The position numbers and the translations under genes are program-made. A stretch of DNA of 29,857 bases. Origin: Chloroflexota bacterium (lineage in GTDB: Bacteria; Chloroflexota; Chloroflexia; JAMDCE01). Where the stretch lies: the NCBI GenBank assembly GCA_023489135.1, contig JAMDCE010000230.1, positions 1 through 29,857 of the forward strand. Reading direction: 5' to 3'. A model generated the notes under the pieces. That model made no database searches. It was not told where the DNA came from and saw only the letters and a program-made list of their open reading frames with translations. Of the stretch, positions 16,757 to 29,857 are shown one piece after another. Position 1 is the first letter of the stretch. Every line of letters starts with the position of its first letter.

Positions 16757-17020
16757 ATGGGACCGATATTCCCCTGGTGGGGTGGAATGTGGCTTTTCCC
16801 GATACTTATGCCAATCATCATGTTGCTGTTCTTTTATCTTGTCGTGCAGCACGGAGGTTTCAGACCTCCGTGGCAAGACTATCCTCGCCGCTACCCTGAG
16901 AGAGGGGATGCTGAAACACCGCTAGAGATACTCAGGAGGCGGTACGCCCAAGGCGAGATCACCAAAGACGAGTTCGAGCAAATGAAAGAAGACCTGAACC
17001 TATCAAACCTTGTAGAATGA
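16757..17020 (+). CDS. Small SHOCT-domain membrane protein in the Sec operon
   Basis: 87 residues. One membrane segment (about 10-30, MWLFPILMPIIMLLFFYLV) is followed by a basic linker and a C-terminal SHOCT domain (LEILRRRYAQGEITKDEFEQ, about 57-80). It starts 16 nt after the ArsR stop with AAAGGGAGA upstream, and its stop overlaps the methyltransferase ATG (ATGA), so the three genes form one operon. It is homologous to the SHOCT protein at 1034. It may anchor partner proteins at the membrane; no enzymatic residues are seen. Confidence 0.75.
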   Translation: MGPIFPWWGGMWLFPILMPIIMLLFFYLVVQHGGFRPPWQDYPRRYPERGDAETPLEILRRRYAQGEITKDEFEQMKEDLNLSNLVE

Positions 17021-18156
17021 GGAGCCGTGGAGGAATGGCACAAGAAAGCAAAGGGACGGATAAACGGGTCCTGAACGCCCAACAAGCGCACTGGGAGACC
17101 ACGCTCTCAAAAGGGCCTGATATGTTTGGGAAAGAAGCGAGCCTTCCCGCCCGCAAAGCGGCGGCTCTATTCAAACAGGAGGGCAAGAACAAGCTTCTCG
17201 AACTCGGAGGCGGACAGGGGCGAGACACCCTTTTCTTCGCGCAAAACGGTTCCGAGGTTCAGGTGTTAGATTATGCCGAAAGCGCAGTCGATGCGATAAC
17301 GCAGAAAGCAGAGTCGTTGGGCGTTGCGCAGTCTGTCACCGCGTCGCGTCATGACGTGAGAAACCGCCTTCCCTTTGACGACGAAACTTTCGATGCCTGC
17401 TATTCGCACATGCTGTTTTGCATGGCGCTCACGACGTCCGAACTCGAATTCCTTTCGAGCGAAGTCAGGAGGGTGCTGAAGCCGGGAGGACTTTGCGTTT
17501 ACACGGTGAGGAACACGACAGACCCCCACTATCGGAAGGGAACCCCTCGTGGCGAGGACATGTACGAAGTAGGCGGGTTCATCGTACATTTCTTCAGCGA
17601 AGAGAAGGTCAGGCATCTAGCGCACGGGTACGACATCCTTTCCATCGATGAGTTTGAAGAGAGCGAGCTTCCCAAGAAGCTGTTTCAAGTAACGCTCAGA
17701 AAGGCAACAGGGAACTCTGGCCGTAATCACGATGCCCGACGAACGACGAGCGGCTCAGGACACGATACTGGAGCGATCTCCAAAGGGGAGGGGAACGTGC
17801 TTTCCAAGTACGACGAGTTCTTCGCCGGAGTCTACCAGGACGGTGGCGCATTTGATCGCAAGACCAAACATCTGATTGCCCTTGCGGCGTCTCTGGCAGC
17901 GGCGTGCGAGCCCTGAACTGCCTACTGCTTTGCAGTTGCAAAGGAAGCTGGGGCTTCAACAGAAGAGCTGAATGAGACCGTGGCTATCGCTATGACCGTT
18001 GGAGCTACGAAGCTCCGCGCCCTCGCCGAAAAAGTTACCGGTGGCCCGATTCAAGACGTTGAGCATGAGTCTTCTGAGAGCGGAGCAGCAACCACGGAGG
18101 AACCGGCAACAACCGAAGAAAGCTGCTTCACCTGAACTGTGTCTCCTCCTGTTTAG
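17017..18156 (+). CDS. SAM-dependent methyltransferase fused to AhpD/CMD domain, two in-frame TGA (putative selenoprotein)
   Basis: 379 residues if both TGA are read. Residues about 20-230 form a class I SAM methyltransferase (motif I LLELGGGQGRDTLFF, 60-74; DACYSHMLFCMAL; EVRRVLKPGGLCVYTVRN). A Ser/Gly-rich linker leads to a carboxymuconolactone decarboxylase/AhpD-like domain (LSKYDEFFAGVYQDGGAFD, KTKHLIALAASLAA). The AhpD CxxC is CEP-U, with TGA at 17914-17916 as residue 300. The frame continues TAYCFAVAKEAGASTEELNE, clearly AhpD, with Cys304 where AhpD has His. A Glu/Thr-rich tail ends CFT-U (TGA 18133-18135, residue 373), TVSPPV and TAG. Each TGA has a SECIS-like hairpin, and an intrinsic terminator lies 40 nt after the TAG, not after the first TGA. 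It may methylate metalloids, with the CxxU pairs giving reductant; this is inference. The start may instead be ATG 17035. Confidence 0.82.
17928..17943 (+). promoter_or_regulatory. SECIS-like hairpin for TGA at 17914
   Basis: Perfect 6-bp stem CTTTGC/GCAAAG with loop AGTT (G at second position), with 17 nt between the TGA and the loop. An alternative stem AACTGC/GCAGTT right after the TGA competes with it. Confidence 0.68.
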
Positions 18157-28675: not shown

Positions 28676-29020
28676 ATGCAATCCGTGGAAATGCCCGCGG
28701 AGCAAGTCGAACTGCAGACGGAAGTCTTGAGCAAGTTCTTCCGTGGTCTCGGCGACCCGACCAGGGTAAGGATCATCGAATACCTGCTGGAAGGAGACAA
28801 GAGCGTCGGTGAACTGGTGTCTTTGCTGCACTCGCCGCAGGGGCGGGTGTCAACACACCTTGCCTGTCTGCGCTGGTGTGGCTACGTCTCGTCGTACAAG
28901 AACGGCCGCAACGTCTACTATCGCGCCGACGATCAACGCGTCAGGGACATCCTGCGTCTGGCCAAAGAGATGATCTTCGACAATGCCCAACGGATCGTCT
29001 GCTGCAACATTATTCGTTAG
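28676..29020 (+). CDS. CmtR-like ArsR-family metal sensor
   Basis: 114 residues: FFRGLGDPTRVRIIEYL, recognition helix GRVSTHLACLRWCG, wing KNGRNVYYRADD and C-terminal helix ending RIVCCNIIR. Cys64 and Cys68 in HLACLRWC and Cys109/110 near the C-terminus match the three-Cys Cd/Pb site of CmtR (Cys57, Cys61, Cys102). The start at 28676 has AGGAGG seven nt upstream. It lies 37 nt before the MerB gene and has its own palindromic operator, so it probably controls merB and responds to a soft metal, plausibly Hg or an organomercurial. A decayed relative is at 502-739. Confidence 0.88.
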   Translation: MQSVEMPAEQVELQTEVLSKFFRGLGDPTRVRIIEYLLEGDKSVGELVSLLHSPQGRVSTHLACLRWCGYVSSYKNGRNVYYRADDQRVRDILRLAKEMIFDNAQRIVCCNIIR

Positions 29021-29057: not shown

Positions 29058-29687
29058 ATGGCTGATTCTGACTCCGTACCACTCAAAAGCCTGGTGCGGT
29101 CCATAAGCGCCGATGAGAAGGCCGTACTGTTGGCATCCTTTGACGCTATCCTCGCGAATACACCTGCGTCTCTCCAGTTCCTCACACAGCGCACAGGTCT
29201 GACTCCTGGAGCCGTGGCCGACGCAACAAAACGTCTTGTTGAACTGGGTCTTCTGGTCTTCGATGAGGCAGGGCTGGTCGTTGGTAGCTTGGGCCTTACG
29301 CTTGTTCCTACGCGCCATCACCTTAGTATGCAGGGCAACGGCTACTATACGTGGTGTGCCGAGGATGCCGTGGGCATACCGGCGGCGCTCAATTTAGACG
29401 CCGCGATAACCTCTTCCTGCTTTCAGTGTGGCCAGCAGGTAGCCATTGAGCTGGAGCGTGGAGAAGTCGTTAAAGCAACTCCGCAAGGGATTCGTTTGTG
29501 GATAGCTGAAGCAGAGGTTGGTCGCTCAATCGTCGGTTGTACCTGACCGCGCATCAATTTCTTCTGCTCGGTCGAGCACTTGGAGGCGTGGCGTCAGCAA
29601 AACCCCGCTCAAGAAGGGCATTCGGCGACCTTGGAGGAAGCTGTCGCTATGGGGCATTTGTTGTGGGGCGAGCTAAACAGAAGATAG
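29058..29687 (+). CDS. merB: Organomercurial lyase MerB with TGA at catalytic Cys159 position (putative selenoprotein)
   Basis: MerB cleaves C-Hg bonds using Cys96, Asp99 and Cys159. From ATG 29058 (AAGGGAG upstream) the frame shows an N-terminal helical domain, then GYYTWCAEDAVGIPAAL with Cys100 and Asp103. A TGA at 29544-29546 is codon 163. The frame continues PRINFFCSVEHLEAWRQQNP, GHSATLEEAVAMGHLLWGEL and stops at TAG 29685-29687, giving 209 residues, the normal MerB length. Spacing from Cys100 to codon 163 is 63 residues, exactly that of Cys96 to Cys159. The local sequence GCT-U-PRINFFCS fits the TCPxINFFCS pattern I recall from many MerB. A SECIS-like hairpin follows at 23 nt. If translated, the enzyme uses a Sec nucleophile; if not, it would lack its C-terminal quarter. 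An extra CFQC lies at 121-124. Confidence 0.88.
29565..29578 (+). promoter_or_regulatory. SECIS-like hairpin for the merB TGA at 29544
   Basis: TGCTC-GGTC-GAGCA: a 5-bp stem (six if the inner G-C closes) with a loop starting GG, 23 nt after the TGA. It lies within sequence coding for conserved MerB residues, so both constraints act on the same bases. Confidence 0.72.
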
Positions 29688-29857
29688 GGTCGGCGATGGC
29701 TGAGAGGACCGCAAGCGTAAGCGCCGTGGAAGATCCGTCAGGCCCGCGGCCAGAATATCTACGCGCTCGTCGCGCTGGACAGGGTCCGGAAAGCGACTGC
29801 CGTCGATGGCGACGAATGCTCCTTGGCGATTACCACTGCCTCATCGAAGACCAGAAG
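29673..29857 (-). pseudogene. Possible transposase remnant at right edge
   Basis: The minus strand reads GAFVAIDGSRFPDPVQRDER followed by VDILAAGLTDLPRRLR and a TAG at 29673-29675. ELVAIDGSKF-type sequences occur early in IS1182-like transposases, which suggests a broken fragment. It ends inside the merB 3' end. A TGA about eight codons before GAFVAIDG and the lack of flanking transposase sequence prevent a firm call; a plus-strand frame from 29697 is also open to the edge. Confidence 0.25.

Follow-up and report, generated by a model that had tools for sequence, protein, structure and literature searches.

A MerB-family gene of a Chloroflexota bacterium with a predicted selenocysteine at the position of the catalytic Cys159

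We analyzed a stretch of 29,857 nucleotides from a Chloroflexota bacterium (assembly GCA_023489135.1, contig JAMDCE010000230.1, forward strand), which is called the window below. Near its end lies a gene of the MerB family that has an in-frame UGA at the position of the catalytic Cys159 of MerB. This UGA is likely read as selenocysteine (Sec), which would give a predicted carbon-mercury (C-Hg) lyase with an active site of Cys100, Asp103 and Sec163, and we rate this reading as very probable. Selenocysteine at the Cys159 position is well supported, and by the standards of computational work it is a strong prediction. That this Sec-MerB would cleave organomercury compounds, and that it would gain anything from selenium, we infer. 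The gene and its main parts are as follows.

29058..29687, forward strand: Sec-MerB gene, MerB family, 209 residues with predicted Sec163, stop TAG (Pfam, translation, PDB sequence search)
29355..29357, forward strand: TGT codon of Cys100, equivalent of the catalytic Cys96 (alignment; 125 of 125 relatives)
29364..29366, forward strand: codon of Asp103, equivalent of the catalytic Asp99 (alignment; 125 of 125 relatives)
29544..29546, forward strand: codon 163 (TGA), at the position of MerB Cys159, predicted to be read as selenocysteine (translation, alignment)
29565..29578, forward strand: hairpin TGCTC-GGTC-GAGCA resembling a selenocysteine insertion sequence (SECIS), loop from the 24th nucleotide after the TGA (sequence, hairpin scan)

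Translation of 29058-29687 gives 162 residues, a single in-frame TGA, 46 residues and TAG, in agreement with an initial annotation of this DNA that described a MerB frame interrupted only by TGA at codon 163. The frame matches the Pfam MerB family PF03243 (E = 5.5e-30), and the MerB domain and fold are present in the protein. The TGA is 63 residues past Cys100, and in the PDB sequence search it aligned with Cys159 of MerB and the matching cysteine of MerB2, as had also been claimed from the spacing. The residues around it read T-U-P-R-I-N-F-F-C-S. Cys121 of the window protein aligns with MerB Cys117, and is kept in at least 90% of 21 rows. A survey of MerB describes Cys96, Asp99 and Cys159 as strictly conserved and catalytic (PMC8261052). 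The known MerB proteins (PF03243; structures 1s6l and 3f0o for MerB and 5c17 for MerB2, the last 26% identical to the window protein) have Cys159 where the window has TGA and a predicted Sec. The cysteine of a classical MerB is therefore replaced, although it would be present in kind if Sec is inserted, and we file the gene as a variant of the MerB family (Pfam) and not as a classical MerB.

Relatives were collected by a protein search (22) and a profile search (best 120 of 185), which together gave 125 proteins with ids. In the first protein search, 13 of the 22 relatives stopped exactly before the TGA position. Over the whole set, 108 of 125 end exactly one residue before position 163, and 14 have cysteine there. 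The remaining three are P0009, with arginine at position 163, P0007, which ends 15 residues earlier, and P0012, which runs into unrelated sequence. Cys100 and Asp103 are kept in all 125. The closest cysteine forms (P0013, P0046, P0047, P0055, P0087, P0094, P0097, P0108 and P0123) read C-P-Q-I-N-F-F/Y-C-S/T-x-E-H-F, which nearly matches the window sequence past the TGA. Because so many relatives end at the same residue and others have cysteine there, the window gene is not a lone pseudogene, and many of the database relatives look likely to share the UGA/Sec feature. Where organisms are named, the shortened relatives come from Chloroflexi or Chloroflexota (P0005, P0014), Anaerolineae (P0033), Clostridia (P0062) and Syntrophales (P0064). 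One relative of 355 residues, P0016, has weak matches to a heavy-metal-binding domain and a ferredoxin-like stretch, joined to a MerB portion whose last residue again lies at the Sec position.

At the DNA level, a scan of genome contigs with a single query found no relative, and an alignment query found five loci, only one of which (L001) was close. L001 belongs to the metagenome-assembled genome Chloroflexi bacterium FW602_bin.16; its gene keeps the TGA of codon 163, and the residues after it read P-L-I-N-F-F-C-S-V-E-H-L-E-E-W. On viral contigs, alignments A2 and A3 found no relative. When a DNA pattern over the TGA was used instead, 14 loci matched, 13 of them without a MerB match and one (L086, on an IMG/VR contig) a Sec-MerB with TGA at the same codon; alignment A4 on viral contigs recovered the contig of L086 again, as L099. 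Among the best 20 of 112 records in a plasmid search, all matches were below 60% identity.

The window, L001 and L086 proteins share 40-48% identity, and all three genes keep the TGA. Purifying selection was similar on both sides of the TGA in these three close members. Between the window and L001, the nonsynonymous and synonymous distances were dN = 0.51 and dS = 2.2 before the TGA and dN = 0.41 and dS = 2.1 after it (Nei-Gojobori counts). In the other two pairs dS was saturated; after the TGA, the proportions of nonsynonymous differences (pN = 0.39 and 0.28) were lower than those of synonymous differences (pS = 0.76 and 0.75). Thus, the sequence after the TGA is still selected as protein.

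The initial annotation had placed a hairpin 23 nt after the TGA. The hairpin is present, and 23 nt is the distance between the TGA and the loop; the stem already begins at 18 nt. Its loop, GGUC, is also that of the E. coli fdhF element. We defined the hairpin type as an [AG]GU[CU] tetraloop on at least 5 base pairs, with the loop start searched 18-27 nt after the codon. Of the 17 distinct Sec-type loci, 15 have it, against 0 of the 47 Cys-type loci (Fisher's test, p = 8.5e-13, uncorrected for kinship, and L025, L026 and L103 are closely related), and its loops start 20-24 nt after the codon. Of 66 rows, the two for L050, in which the codon is neither TGA nor TGT/TGC, were dropped, and so were loci aligned short of the position. 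When 4 base pairs were allowed, 2 of the 47 Cys-type loci also had it, and codon-order shuffles of the 17 Sec-type loci produced it in 33 of 34,000 cases. In the two Sec-type loci without this tetraloop, L064 and L070, a stem of 6 bp and a loop of 6 nt can be read by eye. A published bacterial SECIS model asks for G in the first two loop bases, a spacing of 16-37 nt and a minimum free energy of -7.5 kcal/mol or lower (PMC13188914); the window hairpin fits it in loop and distance. A longer fold at the window TGA reaches -16.1 kcal/mol, and only longer folds pass the energy limit. The plain fold of 60 nt around the TGA was not significant (-19.7 kcal/mol, z = -0.96; 32 of 200 shuffled sequences folded equally well), and a search of the window at Rfam gathering thresholds gave no match.

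The genome of L001 encodes SelA (524 bits), SelB (355 bits), SelD (399 bits) and tRNA-Sec (70 bits), all above the curated cut-offs, and its SelD itself carries a TGA. The tRNA-Sec search gave loose matches in 5 of 5 genomes and in 14 of 14 control genomes; among the five, only G001 passed the cut-off. The presence of SelB was considered as an association with Sec-type copies and was rejected: it was above the cut-off in 13 of 14 tested Sec-type genomes and in 23 of 26 genomes picked for Cys-type copies, one of which (G521) also has a copy with two TGAs. Because SelB is about as common in Cys-type genomes, it is only a needed condition and permissive evidence. In the window, TGA ends 5 of the 11 genes checked (the MerB gene included), and the code is therefore standard. 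The window also contains a second predicted selenoprotein gene.

17017..18156, forward strand: MduS-like methyltransferase/AhpD-type fusion, TGA at 17914 (CEPU) and 18133 (CFTU), stop TAG (NCBIfam, translation)

Its read-through translation matches MduS (NF045649) at 376.7 bits, against a cut-off of 380. The TGA at 17914 makes a CxxU site inside the AhpD-type domain, and the one at 18133 a CxxU site just beyond the stretch matched by MduS, as read from the sequence; after each of the two lies a hairpin that has G within its first two loop bases. The MduS double selenoprotein is a different protein from Sec-MerB and bears only on the use of Sec.

The genes on either side of Sec-MerB in the window are as follows.

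28676..29020, forward strand: ArsR/SmtB-family metalloregulator directly upstream of Sec-MerB (NCBIfam HTH_metalloreg, 79 bits, cut-off 55)
29688-29857: open frame right after the MerB stop, from an ATG at 29696 to the contig end (no Pfam match, not recognisably merA)

A heavy-metal ATPase gene also lies in the window. At L001, the ArsR-type regulator comes first, then Sec-MerB, then MerA (609 bits, cut-off 454) and finally a protein with a weak resemblance to MerT (36 bits, below the cut-offs). The ArsR-type regulator is thus directly upstream of Sec-MerB in both places, and the mer-type order at L001 is one of the steps behind the C-Hg lyase reading.

We read the UGA as Sec because of its position, the conservation of the frame on both sides, the cysteine in relatives, the hairpin type specific to UGA copies and the Sec machinery of the L001 genome. 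The initial annotation had predicted Sec at codon 163, and the cysteine at that column and the hairpin contrast speak for it; of the checks that it had proposed, the one on relatives (TGA and purifying selection past it, in L001 and L086) and the one on Sec machinery, to which the MduS-like gene adds, came out on the same side. If the UGA were an ordinary stop, the product would be a 162-residue MerB without Cys159, from a dead gene or as a shortened protein for mercury binding or regulation, for example. Gene callers do place the end of 108 of 125 relatives at this point, which is also what would be seen with a conserved short protein. However, over the 46 codons past the TGA, three members that share 40-48% identity keep the frame, the MerB sequence and purifying selection; in Cys relatives the protein continues over this same stretch, the hairpin type is confined to TGA copies, and the lost part would hold a catalytic residue and the end of the fold. 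An ordinary stop is therefore very unlikely. It is harder still to credit that the UGA is read as another amino acid, through a reassigned code or through read-through with Trp or Cys. In a single gene, a frame open past UGA would look identical, but TGA ends other window genes, the aligned TGAs fall only at the two catalytic Cys columns (except that at query residue 9 of L027), and the L001 genome has Sec genes. The contig is probably metagenomic, and a single wrong base could create a stop; nevertheless, a one-base sequencing or assembly error has next to no probability, since the same codon occurs in three distinct DNA records at this level of divergence and in more distant families.

The nature of the substrate is another matter. 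The protein could be a selenoprotein with the MerB fold that acts on a non-organomercury substrate, such as another organometal or a metalloid, as the name organometallic lyase suggests for the MerB-like protein SaoL. The sub-cut-off MerB scores given below and a weak kinship to SaoL agree with this, and so do the methyltransferase-type selenoprotein and heavy-metal ATPase of a window in which no merA was seen. By contrast, the L001 gene is flanked by an ArsR-type regulator and then by MerA and the weakly MerT-like protein, the Cys96 and Asp99 equivalents are universal among the relatives, and the residue matching MerB Cys117 is widely kept. We consider such a substrate unlikely, and we prefer the C-Hg lyase with Sec163. 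Several observations nevertheless count against that preference. The window protein scores 99 of 193 and 89 of 200 bits with the NCBI curated MerB models (NF009710 and NF033555), below both cut-offs, so that the substrate is not assured. No merA was seen in the window, whose contig ends 170 bases past the Sec-MerB gene. The Sec machinery that was observed belongs to the genome of a relative, L001, and SelB is frequent with Cys-type copies as well. Among the 108 shortened relatives, the DNA past the last codon was read only for P0014 (which is L001). The selection test comprises three DNA records only, with dS saturated in two of the three pairs. The compact window hairpin, at -7.1 kcal/mol, narrowly misses the -7.5 limit. 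Finally, P0009 is a full-length relative with arginine at the Sec position, which is either a real loss or a sequencing error.

The initial annotation knew of no characterized Sec-MerB. SaoL, a MerB-like organometallic lyase selenoprotein with a predicted Sec in a CU motif, is in print (PMC13188914, also PMC9312934), so a MerB relative with selenium is not entirely without precedent. The window protein is nevertheless not SaoL by the family model, and this identity was rejected (47.3 bits against the NF040728 cut-off of 140). Both are MerB-like with a predicted Sec, but the motif is C-U in SaoL and T-U in the window, and Sec-MerB has mer-type neighbours in L001. SaoL was above the cut-off in 0 of 400 Chloroflexota genomes. 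No Sao operon neighbours were recognised among the neighbours of the window and L001 genes scanned with NCBIfam, where some neighbours were unscanned and the window contig stops shortly downstream. Other mercury-linked proteins with predicted Sec are a MerP or MerT-like protein, a UxxU metal-binding protein, HgcA and HgcB (PMC13188914, PMC2398784); these serve transport, binding or methylation, and none is a carbon-mercury lyase. The accessible part of PMC12013277 does not mention MerB. By title and abstract, no description of a Sec-MerB in a mer operon was found in the literature searched, which is weak evidence of absence, as subscription papers mostly lay outside it.

In published computations on MerB, Cys96 and Cys159 bind the Hg, Asp99 assists the proton transfer, and exit is through thiol exchange (PMC4525700). 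In the Sec form, Sec163 would fill the role of Cys159. SelB would bind the hairpin and bring Sec-tRNA to the UGA, and mercury binding would make the ArsR-type repressor leave the promoter. The RHg+ substrate may be taken up by Cys100 and the Sec163 selenolate, Asp103 would shuttle the proton that releases the hydrocarbon, and Hg(II) may be handed to MerA through thiol exchange. Any gain from selenium, which the initial annotation raised as a possibly improved or specialised enzyme, would be expected to come from a residue that is already ionised at neutral pH and that combines tighter binding of mercury with quick ligand exchange.

More distant MerB-like genes turned up when whole Chloroflexota genomes were searched, in 49 of 400 genomes of the phylum, in 23 of 393 genomes of the class of L001 and, at a stricter limit, in 14 of 158 genomes of a second class; these sets of genomes overlap. 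Aligned to the L001 protein, TGA stands at position 163 in 15 locus entries, which are 13 distinct genes; one entry also has TGA at position 100, and the only other TGA is at query residue 9 of L027. None of ten MerB-like genes tested reaches the NCBI MerB or SaoL cut-offs. A tree with 77 rows, of which 17 are Sec-type and 60 Cys-type, was built by a quick method and has some long branches; it needs 6 Sec/Cys switches, at least 3 of which are forced by well-supported branches. In one Chloroflexota class, the Sec-type L025, L026 and L103 and the Cys-type L023, L024 and L102 form sister clades.

In five genomes, MerB-like genes have TGA at both catalytic Cys positions (the equivalents of Cys96 and Cys159).

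L067/L116 (genome G531): double-TGA MerB-like gene
L071/L117 (genome G527): double-TGA MerB-like gene
L114 (genome G659): double-TGA MerB-like gene
L115 (genome G521): double-TGA MerB-like gene
L113 (genome G512): double-TGA MerB-like gene

Both TGAs are kept at 55% identity (L067 and L071) and at 59% identity (L114 and L113). In the four double-TGA genes checked (all but L113), a hairpin whose first two loop bases include G lies after each TGA. These genes are predicted to encode MerB relatives with two selenocysteines.

On the viral contig (L086:1499-7161), phage genes for capsid and head-tail connector enclose both the Sec-MerB and a CopZ-like gene, and a tail-chaperone gene lies farther along. 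The CopZ-like gene has an in-frame TGA of its own and matches the Csac_0668 family model at 128 bits, under the cut-off of 190. Because the two genes sit among phage genes, they seem to form a selenoprotein metal cassette carried by a phage or prophage.

The size of the shortened family and the double-TGA genes are the most surprising results. If the shortened relatives are as they seem, gene callers cut 108 of 125 proteins at the catalytic residue, and surveys for methylmercury degradation that demand a full-length MerB with Cys159 would therefore probably miss them. The chances are about even that Sec organomercury lyases form a large overlooked class, in which Cys159 was changed to Sec several times, and both cysteines in some lineages, in mer operons and in phages, giving a faster or tighter lyase that would suit anoxic settings where methylmercury is present in traces. 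Methylmercury breakdown in biology is, by the textbooks, the work of MerB. With a natural form that has selenium in the active site, the affinity between mercury and selenium would become a directly testable enzyme question, for which the natural Cys counterparts would serve as controls.
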